Of a DNA stretch of 28,162 nucleotides, positions 1 through 28,162 are shown piece after piece. Where the stretch lies: IMG/VR virus record IMGVR_UViG_3300029182_000059, positions 1-28,162 of that record, one strand, 5' to 3'. Below the pieces are notes generated by a model. It had not been told where the DNA came from, ran no database searches, and saw only the letters and a program-made list of their open reading frames with translations. Within the stretch, counting starts at the first letter, position 1; each line of letters begins with the position of its first letter. Both the position numbers and the translations under genes were made by a program. Origin of the DNA: a virus.

Positions 1-306
1 TCACCGAATATCTATATGAACTTCTTTATCTAAGCTTTTAGCAATTTTAATAAGGAAGTCTAACGATGGATTGTAAGATCCACTTTCAAGCCTTGAAATA
101 TTAGATTTTCTGGTTCCAGCTCTTTTTGCCAATTCTTCTTGAGTCATTTTCATGCTTTTTCTTGCTTCGATAATCTGAGAAATCAATTCATATCTTGGTT
201 GTAATTTGTTATACTCTTCTTCAAATTCAGCATCTTCCATAAATTCGGTCTTAATATCTTCAAATTTTACTCCAGCAGATTTCGTTTTCACATTCACTTT
301 ACTCAT
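1..306 (-). CDS. higA: HigA-type antitoxin, XRE helix-turn-helix
   Basis: Likely antitoxin of a toxin-antitoxin pair. It should neutralise the upstream toxin and repress the shared promoter. The C-terminal half is an XRE-type helix-turn-helix: MTQEELAKRAGTRKSNISRLE is followed by a PSLDFLIKIAKSL helix. The N-terminal part is acidic and probably contacts the toxin. The reading frame is open further upstream, but the ATG at 306 (or 309) has a GAAGG box at suitable distance, so the longer form is unlikely. It overlaps the 3' end of the toxin gene by 8 nt, which fits translational coupling. Toxin-first order is typical of HigBA. The stop codon sits at the window edge, so nothing is visible downstream. 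Confidence 0.85.
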   Translation of the reverse strand: MSKVNVKTKSAGVKFEDIKTEFMEDAEFEEEYNKLQPRYELISQIIEARKSMKMTQEELAKRAGTRKSNISRLESGSYNPSLDFLIKIAKSLDKEVHIDIR

Positions 307-664
307 CATTACACCTTCTTTCATAATCTTCTTTATGTTTTCTTGCTCTATCAAGTTCCCTCGAAGGAGTCTTATTAGTTTTTTTCACAAAACCATGGAG
401 CAAGATAAATCTACTACCAGTATATGCAAAATAGAATACTCTAGCTATATCCGTAGAGAACTTAACTCGCAATTCATAAATTCCTTTATTATCTTTCCCT
501 TTAATTGATTTTGTATGCGGTTCTCTCAGGTCAAGTCCATGATCTTTTAAAAGTTCAATTTCTCGAAAAGTCTTAGCTCTTAGTTTAACAGGTAAGGATT
601 CTAGGAAGTCTTTCACTGGAACTTCGCCATTTTCTTTTTGATAAAATTCAACGTCGTGTGCCAA
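299..664 (-). CDS. higB: HigB-type toxin, phage Gp49-like (RelE superfamily)
   Basis: About 121 residues resembling the phage-derived Gp49-like/HigB family (RelE/ParE fold), whose characterised members are mostly ribosome-dependent mRNA endonucleases. Family hallmarks visible are VEFYQKENGEVPVKDFLESLP at the N-terminus, the ELRVKFSTDIARVFYF strands and the ILLHGFVKKTNKTP strand near the C-terminus. The start is a TTG at 664, supported by an AGGGGGG ribosome binding site about 7 nt upstream. No ATG lies near it. It is the first gene of a two-gene operon with the antitoxin. Its position right after the tail chaperone, in the same direction, suggests a cargo (moron) gene in the late region. Exact RNase specificity cannot be told. 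Confidence 0.85.
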   Translation of the reverse strand: MAHDVEFYQKENGEVPVKDFLESLPVKLRAKTFREIELLKDHGLDLREPHTKSIKGKDNKGIYELRVKFSTDIARVFYFAYTGSRFILLHGFVKKTNKTPSRELDRARKHKEDYERRCNDE

Positions 665-9916: not shown

Positions 9917-10132
9917 TTAATTCACTTTGTTTATGTCGACTTTAATCTCTTCAACTCGCCAATCCGTAAAGCTTTTGAACCATTCCTTTGAAAACTTCTC
10001 TGCCATCTCTTCGGTGTCCCAGTAGCAGGCCTTATCAAAATCAAAGGTCCATTTTGGGTGGCCATCCCACATGCTGAGGTATAGCTTGTTACCCACTTTC
10101 GTTTGCATCGTTACAGTGTAGAAAATCTCCAT
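9917..10132 (-). CDS. Unknown small phage protein
   Basis: 71 residues, not recognised. It has aromatic beta-rich stretches (FYTVTMQTKVGNKLYLSMWDG) and an amphipathic helix (EEMAEKFSKEWFKSF), with no cysteine motif beyond a single Cys and no membrane segment. The frame is open upstream to 10192 but the ATG at 10132 has an ideal AGGAGG box 8 nt away. It is preceded by a copy of the repeated promoter-like element and followed by a terminator, so it is probably a one-gene transcript. Confidence 0.7.
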   Translation of the reverse strand: MEIFYTVTMQTKVGNKLYLSMWDGHPKWTFDFDKACYWDTEEMAEKFSKEWFKSFTDWRVEEIKVDINKVN

Positions 10133-10159
10133 TCCTTTCGCCTCCTTCGTTTTGGTATA

Positions 10160-10192
10160 TACATATATCACTCTGAAGGAGGGATTAGTCAA
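10160..10192 (-). promoter_or_regulatory. Repeated phage promoter-like element, copy A
   Basis: TTGACT, 17 bp, GATATATGTA, with CAGAGT directly before GATATA. Followed by ACCAAAAC and then AAGGAGG of the gene starting at 10132. Best -35 match to sigma-A among the five copies. Confidence 0.7.
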
Positions 10193-10417: not shown

Positions 10418-10615
10418 CTACTCCGCATCCACATACTCCATCAACATAGCCAGTGCCTCATCATAGCTCTTGGCTTCAGTAGTTATTCGCTTAACCATCT
10501 CATCTGCCTTTTCAGGCTCCCCAGCTTCCTTTAGAGTTCGTGATACAATCCCCATGAGATTGAAAATGTTCCCGTTTTCCCCAATGAGTCTGCATTTAGG
10601 TTTCATCGGTTTCAT
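10418..10615 (-). CDS. Conserved small helical protein of Firmicutes elements
   Basis: 65 residues (62 if the second ATG at 10606 is used). The sequence CRLIGENGNIFNLMGIVSRTLKEAG and the C-terminal SYDEALAMLMEYVDAE are of a type I recall often in Clostridia phages and conjugative elements, without a known function. It overlaps the 3' end of the amidoligase-like gene by about 20 nt, which indicates translational coupling with it. No catalytic or metal motif is seen. Confidence 0.7.
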   Translation of the reverse strand: MKPMKPKCRLIGENGNIFNLMGIVSRTLKEAGEPEKADEMVKRITTEAKSYDEALAMLMEYVDAE

Positions 10616-11417
10616 CCACCTTTCTAAAAGCACCGCTACCCTCTAGGTGCTTAAGTAGTGTCTTTCTGGTTTCCTTGTACTTTGGACCATTCATTCCAAT
10701 GCGGATCAGCCAGGTTCTGAGTGCATACTTCGGGTTGTCATCTTGAGCCTGTTTGTAGGATGCGCGGTTTAAGGTTCTTCCGTATCTAGCAATAAGTACA
10801 CATAAATCCTGAAATGCCTTGATTCTCTCTGGATTTAAATTTGAGCTGTAAAGTTTGAAGGTGAATGTCTTCTCATCAAAATCAATCTGAAATCCAGGAC
10901 ACCTGTTTGTCCCGAGTTCTTCAAAGGCTTCTTTAAGTCCCTCTAAATCATTAATCTCTGGCTTGTTTAGGTCTTCAGCAAACCCGTCATCTATGAAGGC
11001 TTCCTCTGTTTCAAAAGCCATCATAATAAGTCGCTGCTTACTGTAAAGCATGTTGATGATATTCTTCAGGCTATCAGCTGTGTGCTCTTCAAAGTTTAGT
11101 TTAACTTCAACTCCACCAAGTTCTTCTAGCGGATTAGTTGTTTCAGCATTTTGAGCTACCTCATGAATTTCAACTTCATTCATCTGCACTTCATCATTGT
11201 GTTCTTGATCAACCATTGGCTCTTGCTGTACTTCTGGATTCAGGATTTCTTCCATAGTGATGGACTCTCCATCTCCTCTAGTAATATCTCCATGCCTGTC
11301 AATGGTGTATACTTCATTTTCTGTTCTGATTTCATAGGCAAAGCTTGGAACACTTAGGTATTTAGGTTTGATGCCAAAGTGCTCGCCCAGTTGTTTGATC
11401 ATTTTTTTTCGGTCCAT
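10596..11417 (-). CDS. Amidoligase-like paralog lacking active-site strands
   Basis: 273 residues. By eye it aligns with the amidoligase encoded at 13078-14001 over most of its length: RKK...EHFG...ITRG near the N-terminus, HTADSLKNIINMLYSKQ against HTPRSIRNFMNIIYSRN in the middle, and RTWL.RIG then KHL.GS at the C-terminus. The catalytic features of the enzyme are gone: there is no FGIEIEL strand, HIHLD is replaced by VKLNFE, and ELRGFN by FKLYSS. An acidic, low-complexity linker (about residues 60-100) replaces another part. It is best read as a pseudoenzyme or a binding partner. The ATG at 11417 has correct spacing from GGAGG; the ATG at 11423 is too close. Promoter element copy B lies upstream. 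Confidence 0.75.
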   Translation of the reverse strand: MDRKKMIKQLGEHFGIKPKYLSVPSFAYEIRTENEVYTIDRHGDITRGDGESITMEEILNPEVQQEPMVDQEHNDEVQMNEVEIHEVAQNAETTNPLEELGGVEVKLNFEEHTADSLKNIINMLYSKQRLIMMAFETEEAFIDDGFAEDLNKPEINDLEGLKEAFEELGTNRCPGFQIDFDEKTFTFKLYSSNLNPERIKAFQDLCVLIARYGRTLNRASYKQAQDDNPKYALRTWLIRIGMNGPKYKETRKTLLKHLEGSGAFRKVDETDET

Positions 11418-11443
11418 TTTCATACCTCCTTCGTTTTGGTACT

Positions 11444-11476
11444 TACATATATCACTCTAAACACAGGATATAGCAA
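11444..11476 (-). promoter_or_regulatory. Repeated phage promoter-like element, copy B
   Basis: TTGCTA, 17 bp, GATATATGTA, with TTTAGAGT before GATATA. ACCAAAAC and AGGAGG of the amidoligase-like gene follow. Confidence 0.7.
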
Positions 11477-11530: not shown

Positions 11531-11568
11531 TTTCATATACCATAGTAGTAAGAACCTAGGAGGTGCAA

Positions 11569-11817
11569 ATGAAATCAACAGGCATTGTTCGGAAAGTTGA
11601 TCAGCTTGGCAGAATCGTCATCCCAAAAGAACTAAGAGACACTCTCAGCATCGACCAGAAATCACCACTTGAAATCTTCACCAGTGAGGATACCATCATC
11701 CTTGGCAAGTACGAGCCGCAGTGTGCAATCTGCGGTAATTCAAAAGGTACTCGTAAATTCAAGGAAAAGCTCATCTGCAATAATTGTATTGCCTATATCA
11801 AAGAAGCAGGCCGCTAA
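11569..11817 (+). CDS. AbrB/SpoVT-type regulator with zinc ribbon
   Basis: 82 residues. The N-terminal half is a swapped-hairpin AbrB domain: STGIVRKVDQLGRIVIPKELRDTL followed by PLEIF and IILGKY. The C-terminal half has two cysteine pairs, CAIC and CNNC, forming a probable zinc ribbon. DNA-binding transition-state-type regulator, and the only plus-strand gene between 1 and 22284. The ATG at 11569 has AGGAGG 5 nt upstream; the GTG at 11563 overlaps that box. Its divergent placement next to promoter copy B suggests that it regulates the accessory genes. Confidence 0.88.
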   Translation: MKSTGIVRKVDQLGRIVIPKELRDTLSIDQKSPLEIFTSEDTIILGKYEPQCAICGNSKGTRKFKEKLICNNCIAYIKEAGR

Positions 11818-11840: not shown

Positions 11841-12152
11841 TTAAAGCTCAAGACCGGTGTAACGTGGGTAATCATACCCTTCCGTATTTACCAGAACCCT
11901 CTCTCCCGTGTCGATGTTCAGGACTCTGATGCACCTGATCTTACCATCTTGGTCCATCCCACCATCTTCATGTGAAATCCAAGGCTGATCTTTGAAGAAG
12001 TCCTGGGCAAAATTTCTGAACTCTGCATCCTTTAAAATCACTTCTCTCGTGATGGTGTATGGCTGCCCTTTCTTTCCCTCTTTGATGGCTTGGTGGGTGA
12101 GTTCTTTAAGCTCTACTAGGTCGCACACTTTTCTACCGAATAATGCTTTCAT
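11841..12152 (-). CDS. Conserved phage/ICE protein of unknown function
   Basis: 103 residues. I recall similar proteins in Firmicutes mobile elements, with GKPYT.(T/N)REVIL near the middle, then DQPWI and a C-terminal VLVNTEGYDYPRYTG, but no known biochemical role. It is alpha/beta and has a conserved-looking C-terminus. The ATG at 12152 overlaps the stop of the upstream gene (TGATG) and has a GGAGG box; the GTG at 12155 is less likely. It forms a two-gene unit with 12152-12343 under promoter copy C. Confidence 0.72.
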   Translation of the reverse strand: MKALFGRKVCDLVELKELTHQAIKEGKKGQPYTITREVILKDAEFRNFAQDFFKDQPWISHEDGGMDQDGKIRCIRVLNIDTGERVLVNTEGYDYPRYTGLEL

Positions 12153-12343
12153 CACTTTTTCCCTCCCACTCTTTTGAAATATCCTGTTTCCAGAAATTCC
12201 TCCATCTCACCGAGGGTGTAGATAAGGCATTCATCATCGTTTTCTTCAATGGGTGCCAAGATAAAATCCCGATCCCATTTCCCAGCGATTTCGTAAACCT
12301 TACCGCTCCTGCTTTCAAACCTGTCTTTCTTCTGAGTCATCAT
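12152..12343 (-). CDS. Unknown small phage protein
   Basis: 63 residues, not recognised. Beta-rich N-terminal part (SGKVYEIAGKWDRDFILAPIEE) followed by an acidic helix (TLGEMEEFLETGYF). No cysteine motif beyond one Cys. The ATG at 12343 has GGAGG 8 nt upstream. Its stop overlaps the start of the next gene. Confidence 0.65.
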   Translation of the reverse strand: MMTQKKDRFESRSGKVYEIAGKWDRDFILAPIEENDDECLIYTLGEMEEFLETGYFKRVGGKK

Positions 12344-12385
12344 TTCTTTGACCTCCTTGCTTTTAGTTTGCTTTTGGTACTACCA

Positions 12386-12414
12386 TATATCACTCTAAAG
12401 CTACATAAATGCAA
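12386..12414 (-). promoter_or_regulatory. Repeated phage promoter-like element, copy C
   Basis: TTGCAT, 17 bp, GATATATGG, with TTTAGAGT before GATATA. ACCAAAA follows in the leader. It sits in the 107-bp gap between the cyclotransferase stop and the 12343 gene. Confidence 0.7.
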
Positions 12415-12450: not shown

Positions 12451-12942
12451 TTACAGAAAACTCGGCGGGTACTTTTTAATGGCTTTTTCACTGATGGCCA
12501 GAGCATCTTCAATATATGCTTCGTCAAAACCGGCAGCCCTATAACCTTCTTTCACAGTCTCTAGATAACATCTACTTGGAAGGTTGAGATGGATCCTATC
12601 CAGAATCTTATCGGTCATGATGTACACCATGGCCGTGATGGATGTTCCATCTTCCAGGGTGACTTTCACATCTTCCTTTTCATAAAACCTCGGGTAGCCT
12701 TCGTAAAAATCCAGCGCCTTCTCATCTTCAGGCTCAAGTTCCCAAACCATCACAGGTACTTTTCCACCACGTTTTTTCTCAATCGTGCAGTAGGCGTTTT
12801 CCATCTGACCCTTAAATAGCAGACGGTATCCTTTTAGCACCCCTTTGCCATAGACCTTAGCTGTTGGGCACCTCAATGCCATTTGACCGAGATTGAGATT
12901 GGACCCATAGGCCACGTTAAGTCTTTTTTCCACTTTCATCAT
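12451..12942 (-). CDS. Gamma-glutamylcyclotransferase-like protein (GGCT/AIG2 fold)
   Basis: About 163 residues. The signature AYGSNLN near residues 9-15 and the catalytic-type glutamate in FYEGYPRFYEK are those of the GGCT/AIG2 family, which releases 5-oxoproline (pyroglutamate) from gamma-glutamyl groups. C-terminal PSRCYLETVKEGYRAAGFDEAYIEDAL is a helical tail found in prophage versions. The ATG at 12942 has an AAGGAT box; the in-frame ATG at 12987 has none. It lies downstream of the amidoligase on the same strand, separated by a structured 135-bp region. The pair probably acts on the same linkage, one making and one cutting it. Confidence 0.85.
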   Translation of the reverse strand: MMKVEKRLNVAYGSNLNLGQMALRCPTAKVYGKGVLKGYRLLFKGQMENAYCTIEKKRGGKVPVMVWELEPEDEKALDFYEGYPRFYEKEDVKVTLEDGTSITAMVYIMTDKILDRIHLNLPSRCYLETVKEGYRAAGFDEAYIEDALAISEKAIKKYPPSFL

Positions 12943-13077: not shown

Positions 13078-14001
13078 CTATGCAGCTGTGCGAAATCTCC
13101 AGGCTGCGCTTCCATTCAGGTGCTTGCAAAGGTGCTCTCTGCAGTTCTTGAAATCCTCTCCGATAAAGCCGATTCGGTTAAGCCAGGTTCTCATGGAGAA
13201 CTTTGGGTTTTCAATCTGTGGCTTCTTGCTGCTGGCGCTCTTTTGGGTCAAGGCCTGATGGTTCATCGCAAGGCTCAAGACAACGTAGCTCCTAATCTTT
13301 CCTGCGTGAAGGGTTCCGTTGAAACCCCTTAGTTCAACCGTTCCGCATCCGTTAAAAAGGCTGTGAAGGTTTAGAAAATGGTACCTACTTTCATGGTAGT
13401 GCCTTTCTCTTCTGTCGTTGTAGTCTTGGTACCAGATGTCTTCAATCTGCTTCATGGTAGTTGGCTTTTTCTTGTTCATCCTCTCCACAAGGCTTTGGTC
13501 CATCTTTTTGCAGTAGTGCATTCTTCGTCGCTCTATCTGAAGGGCATCGTATAAAAGGTCGTTCCTTGAGTAGATGATGTTCATGAAGTTTCTAATGGAC
13601 CTTGGTGTGTGGTCTCTGCCATCCAGGTGGATGTGAATCCCGGTGCAGTTTTGCTGTTCTGAAAAAGCTCCGCCTTTCCTAAGTTTTCTTACCATCTCCT
13701 GAAGGTCTGCCATGTCCTTTTCGTAGGTTAAAATTGGGCTGACAAGCTCAACGCTGTATTCTTTTGAAGCTGAAACCTTCTGGCCGCCTACTTTCTTTTG
13801 AGTGGTTATGCTTCCGTCATACATCACTTTCCACTTTCGTCCATCCGGTGCTGTGATTCTAAAGGTTCCGCTGTAATCGTGAAGCTCCTCGAGGCTACCG
13901 CCTAAATGTTCTGCCACAATCTTCGCAGCTTTCTTTCTGGTAATTCCTGTTAATTCAATCTCGATGCCAAAGTTGCTCTTTAGAAAATCCTTGCTAGCCA
14001 T
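13078..14001 (-). CDS. Amidoligase family protein (GCS/COOH-NH2 ligase fold)
   Basis: 307 residues, a phage-type amidoligase of the glutamine synthetase/gamma-glutamylcysteine synthetase-like superfamily. Hallmarks are the FGIEIELTGITRKKA strand at the N-terminus, DGRKWKVMYDGSIT, the VELVSPIL strand, CTGIHIHLD, RYHFLNLHSLF and ELRGFNGTLHAGKI; these carry the acidic and basic residues that bind metal-ATP and the carboxylate substrate. The family joins amine and carboxylate groups using ATP. The substrate of phage members is unknown. The ATG at 14001 has AAAGGAG; an open frame extends to 14076 without one. Promoter copy D lies directly upstream and the cyclotransferase lies downstream. Confidence 0.88.
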   Translation of the reverse strand: MASKDFLKSNFGIEIELTGITRKKAAKIVAEHLGGSLEELHDYSGTFRITAPDGRKWKVMYDGSITTQKKVGGQKVSASKEYSVELVSPILTYEKDMADLQEMVRKLRKGGAFSEQQNCTGIHIHLDGRDHTPRSIRNFMNIIYSRNDLLYDALQIERRRMHYCKKMDQSLVERMNKKKPTTMKQIEDIWYQDYNDRRERHYHESRYHFLNLHSLFNGCGTVELRGFNGTLHAGKIRSYVVLSLAMNHQALTQKSASSKKPQIENPKFSMRTWLNRIGFIGEDFKNCREHLCKHLNGSAAWRFRTAA

Positions 14002-14047
14002 GGTATCTTCTCCTTTCTCGTTTAGGTGTGTTTCTTTGGTCATGTAC

Positions 14048-14076
14048 ATTAACGCTCTAAACGAGAAAGATAGCAA
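14048..14076 (-). promoter_or_regulatory. Repeated phage promoter-like element, copy D
   Basis: TTGCTA, 17 bp, GTTAATGTA, with TTTAGAGC before GTTAAT. ACCAAAG follows. This copy has the most changed -10 half but identical spacing. It lies between the methyltransferase stop and the amidoligase start. Confidence 0.65.
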
Positions 14077-14102: not shown

Positions 14103-15368
14103 CTATTCTTCGCTATGGACTTCTGCAGGTTTTTCAACTTCGCTGATATGAATTTTCTCACCCTCACGAAGTACATACACATCTTCATCCGTGTCGACCT
14201 GTTCGATGAACCTCTTCACAATCACAGCGGCATACTTGGGATCAATTTCTAGGGTGTAGGCGATCCGGTCAATCTGCTCGCAGGCGATAAGAGTTGATCC
14301 ACTTCCTCCAAAGAGATCCATGACAATCCCATTAACCTGGGATGAGTTTTTAATGGGGTAGCAAAGAAGCGGCACCGGCTTCATTGTCGGATGTTCGCCA
14401 TTCTTCCTTGGTTTATCATAGTCCCATACAGTGGTTTCAGATCTGCCGGTGAACCATTTATGCTTCCCACCTCTAAGCCATCCGAAGAGAATCGGTTCAT
14501 GGATCCAGTTGTATGGACTTCTACCAAGAACCAGAGAGTTCTTCTTCCAGATACACACGCCGCTTAAGTGGAAGCCCGCTTCAATGAAAGCCTTTCTAAA
14601 ATTAAGCCCTTCTGTATCCGCATGGAAAACATATATGGATCCACCGGGTGCTGTATGCTCTGCCATGTTCTTAAAGGCCGCAAGCAGGAAGCTATAGAAA
14701 GTATCGTTGTCTTGTTTATCGTTTTGGATCTTAAGACCACTGGCACTCTCGAAGTCCACATTGTAAGGCGGGTCTGTAAGAACTAGATTAGCCTTCTTAC
14801 CGTCCATGAGCTTTTCTACATCTTCAGGCTTCGTTGCATCACCACAAAGCAGGCGATGTCTCCCAAGAAGCCATACATCTCCCGGTTTAACAAAGGCAGC
14901 TTCCTCCAATGCTTTGTTCACATCGTAATCATCATCTATTGCATCCTTATCATGGACCTGGCTAAAGAGGTCTTCAATCTCTGCAGCGTCAAATCCAGTA
15001 AGGGTAACATCGAAGTCCTGAGCCTCAAGATCCTTAATCAGATCGGCCAGAGCTTCAAATTCCCAATCACCGGTGACTTTGTTTAGAGCCACATTGAGTG
15101 CCTTTTCTCTTTCAGGGTTCATTTTAACAATGACGCATTCCACTTCTGTATGACCTTCTGCAACCAGCACCTTATATCGTTGATGTCCACCCACAATATT
15201 ACCTGTCTCTTCATTCCAGATGATTGGCTCTACATATCCAAACTCTGTCATGGACCTTTTCAGCTTTTCATAAGCTGGGTCTCCGGGCTTCAAATCTTTT
15301 CTTGGGTTATATTCAGCTGGGTTGATATCCGCTACCGGAACTTTCCTTATAATCATGTCTTGATTCAT
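14103..15368 (-). CDS. ParB-like domain fused to DNA N4/N6 methyltransferase
   Basis: 421 residues. Residues ~1-110 are a ParB/sulfiredoxin-like domain (EYNPRK, GGHQRYKVL). Residues ~165-400 are an amino-methyltransferase with the DPPYNV catalytic motif (about residue 200) before the SAM-binding FGGSGST (about 357). That order (IV before I) is the beta class. It methylates adenine N6 or cytosine N4 in DNA, probably to protect phage DNA from host restriction. No restriction enzyme gene is next to it, so it is an orphan. The ATG at 15368 has a GGAGGG box. The recognition sequence cannot be read from the protein by eye. Confidence 0.92.
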   Translation of the reverse strand: MNQDMIIRKVPVADINPAEYNPRKDLKPGDPAYEKLKRSMTEFGYVEPIIWNEETGNIVGGHQRYKVLVAEGHTEVECVIVKMNPEREKALNVALNKVTGDWEFEALADLIKDLEAQDFDVTLTGFDAAEIEDLFSQVHDKDAIDDDYDVNKALEEAAFVKPGDVWLLGRHRLLCGDATKPEDVEKLMDGKKANLVLTDPPYNVDFESASGLKIQNDKQDNDTFYSFLLAAFKNMAEHTAPGGSIYVFHADTEGLNFRKAFIEAGFHLSGVCIWKKNSLVLGRSPYNWIHEPILFGWLRGGKHKWFTGRSETTVWDYDKPRKNGEHPTMKPVPLLCYPIKNSSQVNGIVMDLFGGSGSTLIACEQIDRIAYTLEIDPKYAAVIVKRFIEQVDTDEDVYVLREGEKIHISEVEKPAEVHSEE

Positions 15369-15393
15369 CAGATTCCCTCCGTTTCTTGGCATT

Positions 15394-22284: not shown

Positions 22285-24171
22285 ATGAAACTAACTTACG
22301 ATGAAGGTATTATCTTAATTAAACAATGCTGGATTGATAACGGTCATGTCATTAACGTCGGAAAGATGGCTGCAATTAATTCCCTGCGACGACACCTTGA
22401 GCAAAACAATATTTCCTATAGTCATGATGAAGCCCTGCATTGGCTCAACTTGAATATAGAGTCCAGAGATAAGCAAACTTTCTTTAGAATGAGACGTGCT
22501 GTGTATGAATTTAATGATGTCATGACTCTTGGAAAAATCACTGGTGATTACAAGTATTATGAAACTTCTTTTGACCGTCTTCCAGAAAGCTGGCAGACAA
22601 TACTGATTAAATATAAAGAAGATCTTTTAACCCGACTGAAGCACCGAGCAACCAGAGACCAAATCATTCACTGTACAAGCTTTGCAACTTTCCTTGTAAA
22701 CAATGATATTTACGATCCTGTAGGAATTACAGTTCCAGTCATTTCCAAATACCATGAATATGCAGACTCTATAGGTGACAAATATATCTGTACCTACTCT
22801 GTCAGATACTTTCTGCAATTTTTAGCTAACCAAGGATTTATTCCTAAACATAGGCCTTTTGCACTTACTGCACCTGTACAAGCTAAAGCAGCTGGATTTG
22901 CGTTAAAAAACATCTCTATCGCAAGCATTTCTGAAACAAATGCCAAAGTGAGCGAATTCCGGTTATCACCTGAAACTTTTCTGGAGCGATGTCAAGATCT
23001 TATTAAGTCTCTTGAAGAAATCTACCATTTCGAGCCTAAAGCTCTTAGAAGCAATTACTTGGCTTATTTTCAAATGTTTTATATCGTTGCCAGTGAATTG
23101 AATCTTGACTACACCCCCGCCGTTGCTGATTACTGGCTGAAGTCAATGGATTCCTTTTCAAGTGATTTTCGTGTGGGTCCAATGCGATACCGTTGCTTTC
23201 ATGTGCTAAAGAGCTTTATTGAGTGTGGGGATACTTTTCTTCAGAGTATTCCTCCGGTTATTGCACAACCTGGAATAGTAACATCTCTAGCGGTCTGGGG
23301 CAGAAATCTTCTTCAAGAGTTTGTTTCTGAAAAAGAAAAGGACGGATTATCTGCCAATACAATCAGCCGCCATAAGTCTGCCAGTATTTCTTTCTTGCTT
23401 TATTTGCAGAGCCAGGGACTTACTTCAATTTCAGAACTTACGCCACAGCTTGTTAAGGCTTACAACATTACAACAGCCCAAAAATCGTCCAATAAAAAGA
23501 ATAATTATGCTTACTCAATTCGACAGTTCCTGCAATATTTGTTTGAGAAAAAATATACAGAACAGGATTTGGTCAGATCATTTCCATCACAACGTGGACA
23601 ATCTCGTAAAATCGTAGAAATTCTTTCAAATGATGAAATTCAAAACATCTATACGTATCGTAACAATGCACGTACACCGTTGGAATTGCGTGACAGTGCA
23701 ATGCTAATAATTGGACTTCTCATGGGACTACGAGGAATTGATGTAATTAATCTACGTTTTTCCAATATCGACTGGAAGCATCAGACAATAGCGATTACCC
23801 AGCAGAAAACATACCGTCCATTGATCCTTCCAATGCCTGTAGCAGTCGGAAACAGCATCTTTCAATACTTAAAATATGGAAGACCCAATAGTAACTCAGA
23901 CTATATTTTCTTGTCTCAGCGCGCACCATATGGAAATGCAAATCGTTCAGCCTGTAATACTGCTATAGAAAGAGTTTTCAATGGTGAAAAGCATTCCTTC
24001 CATATCTTAAGAAGAACATTTGCAACGAGGTTATTATCAGCAGGCTTCGGGAGTGACACCATTAAGGATTCTCTTGGCCACTCTACTATTGATACAGTTA
24101 ACCGATATCTCTCAGTCGATGAAGAAGGTATTCGATCATGCTGTCTTCCCCTTAAAAGGACGGTGAAATAG
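22285..24171 (+). CDS. Tyrosine recombinase, first of trio (RitA-like, long form)
   Basis: 628 residues. The N-terminal ~350 residues are a long helical extension without recognised motifs. A SAM-like core-binding domain follows (about 340-440), then the catalytic domain: Arg in LLMGLRGIDVINL, Lys in QQKTYRPL, HILRRTFATRL (His-x-x-Arg), LGHST and the nucleophile in NRYLSV. All catalytic positions are present, so it should be active in DNA breakage and joining. AGGAGG lies 8 nt before the ATG. One base separates it from the second recombinase. Its length resembles Tn554 TnpB more than the ~400 residues typical of RitA. Confidence 0.88.
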   Translation: MKLTYDEGIILIKQCWIDNGHVINVGKMAAINSLRRHLEQNNISYSHDEALHWLNLNIESRDKQTFFRMRRAVYEFNDVMTLGKITGDYKYYETSFDRLPESWQTILIKYKEDLLTRLKHRATRDQIIHCTSFATFLVNNDIYDPVGITVPVISKYHEYADSIGDKYICTYSVRYFLQFLANQGFIPKHRPFALTAPVQAKAAGFALKNISIASISETNAKVSEFRLSPETFLERCQDLIKSLEEIYHFEPKALRSNYLAYFQMFYIVASELNLDYTPAVADYWLKSMDSFSSDFRVGPMRYRCFHVLKSFIECGDTFLQSIPPVIAQPGIVTSLAVWGRNLLQEFVSEKEKDGLSANTISRHKSASISFLLYLQSQGLTSISELTPQLVKAYNITTAQKSSNKKNNYAYSIRQFLQYLFEKKYTEQDLVRSFPSQRGQSRKIVEILSNDEIQNIYTYRNNARTPLELRDSAMLIIGLLMGLRGIDVINLRFSNIDWKHQTIAITQQKTYRPLILPMPVAVGNSIFQYLKYGRPNSNSDYIFLSQRAPYGNANRSACNTAIERVFNGEKHSFHILRRTFATRLLSAGFGSDTIKDSLGHSTIDTVNRYLSVDEEGIRSCCLPLKRTVK

Positions 24172-24172
24172 G

Positions 24173-25162
24173 ATGAAAATACAACGCAACTATGACTTTT
24201 ATAGCACTTTGGCTCCGGTCATCAAGGGCCTGATCGACGAAAAACGTGCATGTGGCTACTCATATGCATCAACTGAAAATGTATTGAAGGAACTTGACAA
24301 TTTTTGCCTTAAGCATGATTTTACATCCTCCACAGTTACGAAAAAACTTGCAGATGCATGGTCCATGCAGCGTTCTACCGAAGGATTGAATGCCAGAAAC
24401 ATAAGAGTGAGCGTACTTCGCCAGCTTTCAAAATACCTGATTTCGCTTGGAACAGACGCATATATTCCAAAGTTATTTCAATCTAAAGAAATATCTGAAG
24501 CACACGTTTTTACTGGTGATGAGTTGCTGGCATTCTTTGAAAATCTTGACAATCTTGAACCTGTTAGGCAATCCTATGGAGTGAGGCTTCTCAATGAATG
24601 CAAAGTCCTTTTTAGGCTTTACTACTGCTGCGGGATGCGTCTTAATGAGCCTTTACAGCTCATATGGGAGTGCCTTGATTTACAAGCAGGAACTCTTCGC
24701 ATCCTTCAATCCAAAGGTGACAAGGATCGTATTCTGTGGCTTACTGATGACATCATCGACATGCTAAAAAAATATCGTGCTTATATCCAGAACGAACGTC
24801 CTGACACAAATTGGGTTTTTCCTGGAACAAAGGAAGATAATCATCTGAGCGATGTTTCAGTAAGAGACTACTTTTTAAGAGCATGGACTGATACACCTTA
24901 CTCCAGAAATAGCAATCCTCCAACAATCAAGTCATTTCGACATACATTTGTTGTTGACCGTCTAAATAGCTGGATGGAGGATGGTGAACATATTGAGACA
25001 AAGCTTCCATACCTTAGTAAGTTTTTAGGACATGCCAACATCCAGGAATCTCTTTATTACTATCATCAGGTAGCTGAAAGTTCCAAAATCATTCATGCCA
25101 AAGATAAAACATCAGGCTTAGTAATTCCGGAGGTGAACTTCAATGAAAAAAAAGATAACTGA
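24173..25162 (+). CDS. Tyrosine recombinase, second of trio (RitB-like)
   Basis: 329 residues. N-terminal core-binding domain (to ~110), then the catalytic domain with Arg in YYCCGMRLNEPLQL, Lys in QSKGDKDRIL, FRHTFVVDRL, LGHANI and a tyrosine in SLYYYHQV. The first histidine of the usual His-x-x-Arg motif reads KSFR, that is Lys at the His position. This may weaken catalysis or reflect a subfamily trait. It overlaps the third gene by 20 nt. A GGACGG box lies close to the ATG, and re-initiation from the first gene is likely. Confidence 0.87.
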   Translation: MKIQRNYDFYSTLAPVIKGLIDEKRACGYSYASTENVLKELDNFCLKHDFTSSTVTKKLADAWSMQRSTEGLNARNIRVSVLRQLSKYLISLGTDAYIPKLFQSKEISEAHVFTGDELLAFFENLDNLEPVRQSYGVRLLNECKVLFRLYYCCGMRLNEPLQLIWECLDLQAGTLRILQSKGDKDRILWLTDDIIDMLKKYRAYIQNERPDTNWVFPGTKEDNHLSDVSVRDYFLRAWTDTPYSRNSNPPTIKSFRHTFVVDRLNSWMEDGEHIETKLPYLSKFLGHANIQESLYYYHQVAESSKIIHAKDKTSGLVIPEVNFNEKKDN

Positions 25163-26168
25163 TACAAAAATTTTCTTCTCAATGACCCTGCAATATCTCG
25201 AGAATTATCTTCCCAAGCAGTTGGGGCGTAGTCCAGAAACTATACGTTCCTATAAAGATTCTCTGTCTGCGTTTAGAAAATATTTATTCAAAGTAAAGAA
25301 TATTTCTATTTCAAAACTAACTTTTACTGACTGTACTCGTGAGTTGCTTCTAGAATATTGTGCCTACTTGAAAGAACATGGAAATTCTCCGGCCACCTGT
25401 AATGTACGGCTGGCAGCAATAAAGAATTATGTGCAGTATGCATCTGATAACGATGTGTCATTACAATCTATTGCTTTGCAGGTATCAAAAGTTCCTAGCA
25501 TGAGGGTTCCAAAGAGGGAAAAGATTCTTCTCTCTAAAGAAGCCTTAAATGCTCTATTTTCAGAACCTAAGAATACAAAAATCGGTATTCGTGATCGCAC
25601 AATCATGATTCTTCTCTATGATTCTGCAATCAGGGTCAGTGAACTGACAGGGCTTCATATCAACGATGTAAATCTTGACACTTTATCCATACATGTACAT
25701 GGCAAAGGCAATAAGGAACGATCTGTGGCTATAACAGAAAAGACAGCAGAACATCTAAAGCTGTATAAATCAATTTACCATTCAGATACCAAAGACCCAG
25801 ACCATGTATTGTTTTACACAATTATTAAAGGTAACACTGGTAGAATTTCTACTGGTACAGTTGAACGCATTGTCCAGAAATATGCAGATGCTGCAAGAAA
25901 CTCCTGCCCAGACATGCCTGACAGGGTTTATCCTCATTTGCTTCGTGCAGAACGTGCTACACATTTGTATCAAGATGGTGTGGATTCAATTATGATTTCA
26001 AAAATTCTTGGACATTCCAGTGTTGAAACTACCAAAATTTACGCAATCCCATCCCTCGATCAAATGCGCGAGGCATTGAATAAGGTTAATATGCCAGCTG
26101 ATGCTACAGAACAACCTTTGTGGGAAAGTGATGAAGAAGAACTGGCTCGTCTCTGTGGATTGAAATAG
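25143..26168 (+). CDS. Tyrosine recombinase, third of trio (RitC-like, XerC/D-like)
   Basis: 341 residues, the most XerC/D-like of the three. Core-binding domain SPETIRSYKDSLSAFRKYL and SPATCNVRLAAIKNYVQY, then the catalytic domain with Arg in YDSAIRVSELTGL, Lys in HGKGNKERSV, PHLLRAERATHLY (His-x-x-Arg), LGHSSVETTKIYA with the final tyrosine. All are present. GGAGG lies 9 nt before the ATG, inside the end of the second gene. It ends only 5 bp before the inner right-end repeat. Confidence 0.9.
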   Translation: MKKKITDTKIFFSMTLQYLENYLPKQLGRSPETIRSYKDSLSAFRKYLFKVKNISISKLTFTDCTRELLLEYCAYLKEHGNSPATCNVRLAAIKNYVQYASDNDVSLQSIALQVSKVPSMRVPKREKILLSKEALNALFSEPKNTKIGIRDRTIMILLYDSAIRVSELTGLHINDVNLDTLSIHVHGKGNKERSVAITEKTAEHLKLYKSIYHSDTKDPDHVLFYTIIKGNTGRISTGTVERIVQKYADAARNSCPDMPDRVYPHLLRAERATHLYQDGVDSIMISKILGHSSVETTKIYAIPSLDQMREALNKVNMPADATEQPLWESDEEELARLCGLK

Positions 26169-26546: not shown

Positions 26547-26579
26547 TTGCTATTAGTGGCTTTTAGAGTGATATATGTA
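26547..26579 (+). promoter_or_regulatory. Repeated phage promoter-like element, copy E
   Basis: TTGCTA, 17 bp, GATATATGTA, with TTTAGAGT before GATATA. Same arrangement as the four minus-strand copies but on the plus strand, directly upstream of the serine recombinase. Confidence 0.7.
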
Positions 26580-26602: not shown

Positions 26603-28162
26603 ATGAAAAAGATAACGAAAATCGATGAACTGACAAGATCACAGTTGTCGAAAAACAAGCTTCGAGTGGCCGCATATGCCAGGGTTTCAACAGATAGCGA
26701 TGAACAGTTAGAAAGCCTTAAAGCTCAGCGGGAGCACTATGAAAACTACATCAAATCCAATCCAGAATGGGAGTTTGCAGGGCTTTATTATGACGAAGGG
26801 ATTTCAGGGACGAAAAAGGAAAAACGACCTGAGCTTCTTCGCATGATTCGCGATTGTGAAAGTAATCGTGTTGATTTTATTATCACCAAATCTATAAGCC
26901 GGTTTGCACGTAATACCATGGATTGTTTAGAACTGGTAAGACAGCTCTTAAATATTGGTGTTTTCATTTATTTTGAAAAGGAAAATCTAAACACAGGTGA
27001 TATGGAAGGTGAGTTAATGCTTTCTATTTTATCTGGGTTTGCGGCAGAAGAGTCCGCATCCATTTCACAGAATATGACATGGTCAATCAGCAAAAAATTT
27101 CAAAATGGCAGTTTCATTATTGGCAGTCCCCCTTATGGGTATGCCAATGTGAATAGTGAGATGGTCATCGTTCCAGAAGAAGCAGAAGTTGTTAAGCGCA
27201 TTTTTTCAGAGTGCCTTTCAGGTAAAGGTGGAAGTGTGATTGCAAAGGGCCTTAACAGGGACAAGATTCCTGCAAGAAGAGGTAATCATTGGAGCACAGG
27301 AACAGTGATTGATATGCTCCGAAATGAAAAATACAAAGGGGATGCGCTTTTCCAAAAGACTTACACGGATAACAACTTCAATCGACGGCCTAATAAAGGT
27401 GAGAAAGACCAATTTTACTGCAAGAATCATCATGAGCCTATCGTCAGCAAAGAAGTGTTTTCTAAGGCACAAAAGCTGATCACACAAAGAGCGAAGAGTA
27501 AGGCTGTTAACAAAAAGGCTTATCAGAATAGATATGTATTAAGCGGTAAAATCATCTGTGGAGAGTGTGGGTCCACGTTTAGGAGAAAAACAAACTACTC
27601 TGCTGGCAGAAGTTATATTGCCTGGAGCTGCATAGGGCATATTGAAGACAAGAACAGCTGCTCCATGCTGTTCCTGCGTGATGGAGAGATAAAGGCAACC
27701 TTTGCCACCATGATGAATAAGCTTGCCTACAGCAGAAAGATTATCCTTGGGCCACTTTATGATGCTATAAGTAAAAACCAAGAAGAGTGCGACCTTGAAA
27801 GAATTGATGCTATCGATAAGCGAATGGAGCAATTGACCGAAGAGCGCAATACGCTTATTGGCCTTATGACAAAAGGGTTTCTTGAACCAGCACTTTTTAA
27901 CAAGGAACGAAATGCACTGGATAGCGAAATAAAAAATCTAACCACTGAGAAGACAAACCTGGTCATGTCATTTACAAGTGGAACATCACAGGCTGATGAG
28001 GTAAAGGCGATTCTTGAGTATGTTTCAAAAGATAAGTTTGATGGCAATTATACGGACGAGGCATTTGAAAAGTATGTAGAAAACATCATTGTAAATTCAA
28101 GGGATGAACTAACATTTAAATTAAAATGTGGGCCTTCTCTTAAAGAAAGGGTGGTGAGGTAA
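26603..28162 (+). CDS. Large serine recombinase (probable phage integrase)
   Basis: 519 residues. N-terminal resolvase catalytic domain: AAYARVSTDSDEQ has the nucleophile Ser29 with Arg27, and ITKSISRFARN and SILSGFAAEES give the further catalytic arginine region. The recombinase domain spans about 165-290 (PPYGYANVN, GNHWSTGTVIDMLRNEKYKG), then a zinc beta-ribbon with CGECG and later cysteines (about 310-355), and a C-terminal coiled-coil (RIDAIDKRMEQLTEERNTL). It should carry out site-specific integration and excision. GAGG lies 7 nt before the ATG. The stop coincides with the end of the window. Clostridia often carry such genes in pairs or trios, so a second one may follow. Confidence 0.93.
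   Translation: MKKITKIDELTRSQLSKNKLRVAAYARVSTDSDEQLESLKAQREHYENYIKSNPEWEFAGLYYDEGISGTKKEKRPELLRMIRDCESNRVDFIITKSISRFARNTMDCLELVRQLLNIGVFIYFEKENLNTGDMEGELMLSILSGFAAEESASISQNMTWSISKKFQNGSFIIGSPPYGYANVNSEMVIVPEEAEVVKRIFSECLSGKGGSVIAKGLNRDKIPARRGNHWSTGTVIDMLRNEKYKGDALFQKTYTDNNFNRRPNKGEKDQFYCKNHHEPIVSKEVFSKAQKLITQRAKSKAVNKKAYQNRYVLSGKIICGECGSTFRRKTNYSAGRSYIAWSCIGHIEDKNSCSMLFLRDGEIKATFATMMNKLAYSRKIILGPLYDAISKNQEECDLERIDAIDKRMEQLTEERNTLIGLMTKGFLEPALFNKERNALDSEIKNLTTEKTNLVMSFTSGTSQADEVKAILEYVSKDKFDGNYTDEAFEKYVENIIVNSRDELTFKLKCGPSLKERVVR

Follow-up and report, generated by a model that had tools for sequence, protein, structure and literature searches.

Some catalytically dead paralogs activate or inhibit their active relatives. 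The locus described here raises the question of whether a phage gene that resembles a neighbouring amidoligase, and has lost the catalytic strands of that enzyme, acts in this way or has a role of its own. A preliminary description took its product for a pseudoenzyme, possibly a regulatory subunit, inhibitor or substrate-binding partner of the intact enzyme nearby. The window (the whole stretch of DNA analysed, 28,162 bases of an IMG/VR virus record) belongs to a Firmicutes phage or prophage. The gene order on its minus strand is VapE-like primase, VRR-NUC, SNF2 helicase, DUF7768, ArpU-like regulator, HNH, ParB-methyltransferase, amidoligase, GGCT, small ORFs, pseudo-amidoligase, small ORFs, terminase, portal, protease and capsid; part of these labels are presumptive, assigned from the sequence. 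The pseudo-amidoligase, the parts of its product and the neighbouring genes are as follows.

10596..11417 (-): pseudo-amidoligase CDS, 273 aa from ATG 11417 (275 aa if from ATG 11423)
11244..11417 (-): its N-terminal domain, residues 3-60, a helix and three strands; dN/dS 0.10; weak match to enzyme residues 20-66
11124..11243 (-): its disordered acidic linker, residues 61-100; dN/dS 0.68, low pLDDT
10749..11123 (-): its residues 101-225, which keep one half of the amidoligase fold, with the catalytic HxH and ExR positions replaced; dN/dS 0.10
10614..10748 (-): its basic helical hairpin, residues 226-270, conserved in enzyme and pseudoenzyme; dN/dS 0.02
11563..11817 (+): AbrB-like regulator with a zinc ribbon, divergent from the pseudo-amidoligase
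11841..12155 (-): DUF6329-like small protein, frequently beside the pseudo-amidoligase
12451..12942 (-): gamma-glutamylcyclotransferase-like protein (GGACT; GGCT), the constant companion of the amidoligase
13078..14001 (-): intact amidoligase, Pfam Amidoligase_2 (E 9.5e-74), all catalytic motifs present
14103..15392 (-): ParB-domain N4/N6 DNA methyltransferase

The open reading frame of the pseudo-amidoligase spans 10596-11423 (-). The preliminary coordinates imply a start at ATG 11417 (MDRKK...), and the spacing favours that codon, which lies at the usual distance from the AAGGAGG at 11425-11431. The AbrB-like neighbour was considered as a general regulator of the gene and rejected, since its 24 occurrences among 245 loci all fall in the subclade to which the window belongs. 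Elsewhere in the window, three consecutive tyrosine recombinases (22285-26168, +), abutting or overlapping, resemble a recombinase trio (RIT-type) element and are adjoined by a large serine recombinase (26603-28162). At the opposite end, positions 1-664 (-) hold what we take, from the sequence, to be a toxin-antitoxin-like pair, with a RelE/HigB-type toxin (299-664) and an XRE antitoxin (1-354).

Descent from the amidoligases and loss of catalysis

Common descent with the amidoligases is supported by BLASTP, by profile-profile and piecewise profile comparison, and by structural match. Against the window's own amidoligase, BLASTP gives E 2e-20 over residues 3-267 at 23% identity. A profile of 32 pseudoenzymes aligned with one of 14 enzymes at E 2e-38, spanning nearly the whole length, and a control profile of an unrelated methyltransferase reached E 0.25. 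The sequence blocks first cited as shared genuinely pair up: HTADSLKNIINMLYSKQ with HTPRSIRNFMNIIYSRN, RTWLIRIG with RTWLNRIG, and KHLEGS with KHLNGS. Sharing limited to the C-terminal block, which would have told against amidoligase descent, is ruled out by the piecewise profiles, in which residues 100-225 match the catalytic half of the enzyme (E 2e-21) as the C-terminal 45 aa match its C-terminus (E 9e-26). The N-terminal part appears collinear with that of the enzyme, and homology there is weakly supported (residues 1-60, E 1e-4, probability 54%). On these alignments, the pseudo-amidoligase and the enzyme encoded at 13078-14001 are full-length paralogs that have diverged very strongly. The window protein does not reach the cut-off of Pfam Amidoligase_2 (PF12224; 15.8 bits vs 22), a profile matched by just 5 of the 32 pseudoenzyme members, with a best E of 0.004.

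No solved structures related by sequence were found. The AlphaFold2 model of the pseudoenzyme, a prediction on 32 sequences (pLDDT 85), begins with a domain made of a helix and strands; residues 61-100 follow as a disordered linker, and the C-terminal part has a few strands and helices. The enzyme model (pLDDT 91) additionally has strands at 10-18 and 84-87 and a helix at 93-109. Among viral proteins, the pseudoenzyme model matches amidoligases best, that of Arthrobacter phage Salgado at E 7e-4 and probability 1.0. In the PDB, its top ranks are mostly the carboxylate-amine ligases GshF, YbdK and glutamine synthetase, none significant alone; the enzyme model matches YbdK at 1e-4.

Loss of catalysis is uniform across 237 distinct pseudoenzyme homologs. 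Enzyme residues E14, E16, R160 and C164 have no counterpart in any of them, and H123, H125, N211, H213, E223, R225 and H232 are kept in 0-2%. The losses of catalytic strands first read from the window hold: the FGIEIEL strand is wholly missing, HxH has become E106/K108 and ExR has become T188/K190. The ELVSP strand and its long helix are also missing, as is every catalytic residue checked. In the C-terminal helical hairpin, enzyme residues N265, R271, R276, G278, G281, R288, G297 and A300 are kept in 96-100% of the same homologs. Positions conserved in at least 95% of the pseudoenzymes are K6, Y22, P26, Y30, G45, L132, N230, K232, R236, L239, R241, G243, G246, K250, R253, L256, L260, G262 and A265. 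Conservation this strong in the N- and C-terminal parts could mean that the protein is still an enzyme, with an active site newly built on the old fold, but no D, E, H, C, S or T reaches 95% conservation in the 237 homologs, which makes this explanation very unlikely.

High divergence (23% identity) and the lost strands might equally suggest a functionless duplicate in decay, an explanation that the selection data contradict and that deserves almost no credence. Over the whole pseudoenzyme, dN/dS is 0.14; the N-terminal and middle parts each give 0.10, the linker 0.68 and the hairpin 0.02. Reading frames are intact in hundreds of phages, and the pseudoenzymes form one deep clade (SH-aLRT 100). 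The hairpin has a median net charge of +5, and the linker one of -7. Both marks of a pseudoenzyme are thus found, catalytic loss fixed across orthologs and purifying selection, and together with profile homology and structural matches to amidoligases they sustain the pseudoenzyme reading of the preliminary description. The gene encodes a true pseudoenzyme under purifying selection and is not decaying. Its family is old, has a single origin and branched off the phage amidoligases of Firmicutes.

Occurrence with and without the amidoligase

Loci were sampled starting from each of the genes concerned. Among 100 loci found through the pseudoenzyme, with 4.5 kb on either side, a methyltransferase was present in 97, a terminase in 91, an amidoligase in 39 and GGCT in 38; the amidoligase was missing in 61. 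It was missing from the entire record in 24 phage records, which were chosen for lack of a nearby enzyme and some of which may be fragments, and from 25 of 28 whole host genomes. When 50 loci were found through the methyltransferase, the pseudoenzyme was present in 34, and the amidoligase in 17 of these 34 and in 7 of the 16 others (Fisher p 0.77). On a tree of 112 pseudoenzymes, the amidoligase is gained or lost at least 23 times. Because the pseudoenzyme mostly occurs without the enzyme, and because the presence of the latter switches repeatedly, the amidoligase cassette, in which GGCT accompanies the amidoligase in nearly every case, is optional. The pseudoenzyme does not need the amidoligase.

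These data bear directly on the proposal that the pseudoenzyme is dedicated to the neighbouring amidoligase, forming a heterodimer with it as regulatory subunit, inhibitor or substrate adaptor. Several observations would fit such a partner. The pseudoenzyme is present in 37 of 38 loci found through the enzyme, a sample comprising only close relatives of the window's amidoligase; the two genes lie near each other wherever both occur; the distance correlation between them is moderate (0.48; partial 0.34 given terminase); and the common C-terminal hairpin could be a dimer interface. However, 11 more distant enzyme loci, from bacterial genomes, have no pseudoenzyme, and occurrence with the enzyme, as expected of a regulatory subunit, is not what was found. 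Since most carriers, phage or host genome, have no amidoligase and the two genes are statistically independent, a general role as regulatory subunit or inhibitor is not supported; the dedicated partner was rejected as a general role on co-occurrence, tree and independence data, and we regard it as an unlikely account of the family. What is left of the subunit idea is a possible co-regulation, both genes bearing one leader element. A 92-kb contig (IMGVR_UViG_3300017919_000016; L035 and L023) carries two such loci about 28 kb apart, with an amidoligase nearby at one only.

The most frequent neighbour, the ParB-DNA methyltransferase, suggests another partner, with which the pseudoenzyme might act in DNA modification or its control. 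In 97 of the 100 loci it lies upstream, frequently at a distance under 130 nt, and the pair is retained in a phage (L141, 6611-8750) whose portal and terminase were not recognised as related to those in the window. Distance correlations with the pseudoenzyme are nevertheless weak for the methyltransferase (rho 0.33), below the moderate value for terminase (0.45), so that no special coevolution was found; about a third of the loci found through the methyltransferase have no pseudoenzyme, and the association may be plain synteny. With the leader evidence given below, a methyltransferase partnership seems doubtful. In related Streptococcus and Erysipelothrix phages (L047, L048, L346-L349), SAM synthetase and/or cytosine methyltransferase genes often lie beside the ParB-methyltransferase.

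Other leads to a function or target were followed with little return. A search for standalone C-terminal-domain proteins that might name a target, covering 399 genomes, yielded ORFs of the two sizes already known, along with some short fragments. The CmoX/CmoY system (PMC12783734) suggested that the enzyme might hypermodify DNA, but this was a lead only, the ligase of that system being an asparagine-synthetase homolog; no CmoA was seen in the window. The PADLOC models of anti-phage defence gave no match to the pseudoenzyme.

A leader common to enzyme and pseudoenzyme genes

A short element precedes several genes in the window, with the following copies.

11425..11476 (-): leader before the pseudo-amidoligase, comprising a TTGCTATAT promoter-like block and, around a conserved loop (AGAGTGATATATGTAAGTACCAAA), a hairpin that overlaps the ribosome-binding site with its 3' arm; the stem of this copy is imperfect
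12372..12399 (-): second leader copy, preceding the small ORF 12152-12343
10150..10177 (-): third leader copy, preceding the ORF that ends at 9917; 8-bp stem arms CCTCCTTC / GAAGGAGG
14035..14058 (-): diverged leader, preceding the amidoligase
26561-26578 (+): leader core, preceding the serine recombinase

The 28-bp element occurs three times ahead of minus-strand genes, and its core once ahead of the serine recombinase. It is characterised by a TTGCTAT block and a hairpin loop, AGAGTGATATATGTA, and in relatives stands mostly ahead of the pseudo-amidoligase, the amidoligase and a few small genes. Across loci, the leader stands before 64% of pseudoenzyme, 67% of amidoligase and 58% of DUF6329 genes, compared with 0-1% of other phage genes tested; it precedes 0 of 233 methyltransferases, which speaks against the methyltransferase partnership, as the leader common to both genes speaks for the amidoligase one.

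Covariation of the arms rests on permutation tests and a pair count. When right halves were permuted among 161 distinct left arms, z was 12.6. In a sample collected by the loop sequence only, some contigs of which overlap the first leader sample, z was 4.0, and the following gene was the pseudoenzyme or amidoligase in 62 of 97 cases. On a MAFFT alignment, the covariation score was 0.286 vs 0.142 in shuffles, for sequences picked by loop length; RNAalifold gave no consensus structure on the MAFFT leader alignment. The window's own target-gene leader has a mismatched stem and folds no better than shuffles, so the hairpin claim rests on the relatives. The conserved loop was initially read as the -10 region of a promoter; the covarying arms around it favour RNA, and the TTGCTATAT block just upstream of the loop is the likelier extended -10. 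A simple promoter scan picked up neither. Rfam 15 gave no match to the leader and its core sequence was not found in print, so that in the literature and Rfam release searched the element is previously undescribed.

One explanation would join leader and protein: as an RNA-binding regulator, the pseudoenzyme would bind the leader loop through its hairpin and exert translational control over a small phage regulon made up of the pseudoenzyme and amidoligase genes and a few small ones. We consider this improbable.

Proposed role and relation to known proteins

The explanation we prefer, and hold to be probable as a whole, is that a dead amidoligase paralog acts alone as a non-catalytic binding protein by means of its basic hairpin. 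Its components differ in strength: that the protein is a pseudoenzyme and stands alone is very likely, that the hairpin is its functional interface is likely, and that the target is nucleic acid is no better than a tentative suggestion. The selected surface would be the hairpin with its invariant N230, K232, R236, R241, G243, G246, K250 and R253; its most likely docking site is a polyanion or a common partner (DNA, RNA, or a protein of phage or host), by which the intact amidoligase would likewise be guided to the place where it acts. In phages with both genes, these share the leader and perhaps also the target, and competition or joint recruitment could occur, although as a secondary matter.

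Several findings weigh against a lone binding protein. Neither the weak methyltransferase nor the moderate terminase correlation indicates a partner; the common leaders tie enzyme and pseudoenzyme together; the near-constant presence of the pseudoenzyme in loci found through the enzyme is compatible with a helper function in those phages; homology in the N-terminal part is weak; and conserved basic residues can also serve folding or protein-protein contact.

Public labels for the family mislead: members are entered as hypothetical, as 'virulence-related protein' or, under PHROG 2443, as 'amidoligase enzyme'. The 'virulence-related protein' of Streptococcus phages Javan630, Javan191 and Javan105 and of Erysipelothrix phage phi1605 belongs to the same family. 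All 32 diverse pseudoenzyme members match PHROG 2443, which mixes amidoligases with catalytically dead paralogs and leads to false enzyme calls by automated annotation. In Tn6164, three corresponding kinds of gene are listed adjacently as Orf21-23, compared here by description only, and Orf21 is probably a family member. A 2024 prophage paper on C. clostridioforme reports two PHROG 2443 'amidoligase' ORFs beside GGCT, the same number and setting as for the gene pair here. The suggestion that the family had not been described thus stands in part: in the literature searched, no paper presents it as a pseudoenzyme (the amidoligase study of Iyer et al. 2009 lies outside that coverage and may mention it), but the gene had already been seen under the virulence label and in PHROG 2443 listings.

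About 12-14% of sampled Bacillota genomes have a member of the combined enzyme/pseudoenzyme group. The analysis sets a large, widespread phage protein family apart from the enzymes with which it is confused, making automated 'amidoligase' claims correctable. The 45-residue hairpin, as a conserved candidate interface of both proteins, offers a handle on the target of the phage amidoligases, and the common covarying leader is a testable regulatory link between enzyme and pseudoenzyme.

Among known proteins, the nearest are those of Amidoligase_2 (PF12224), glutamine-synthetase-like carboxylate-amine ligases that include the GGCT-linked phage amidoligases. The pseudoenzyme shares with them a homologous catalytic half and C-terminal extension and a related predicted fold, but differs in lacking ExE, HxH, ExR, the first strand and the long helix. 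The legacy label 'virulence-related protein' finds no support in these results for a virulence role. Like catalytically dead paralogs in general, the pseudo-amidoligase combines a conserved fold with lost catalysis and purifying selection. In contrast to pseudoenzymes that activate or inhibit active relatives, it is usually found without an active relative.
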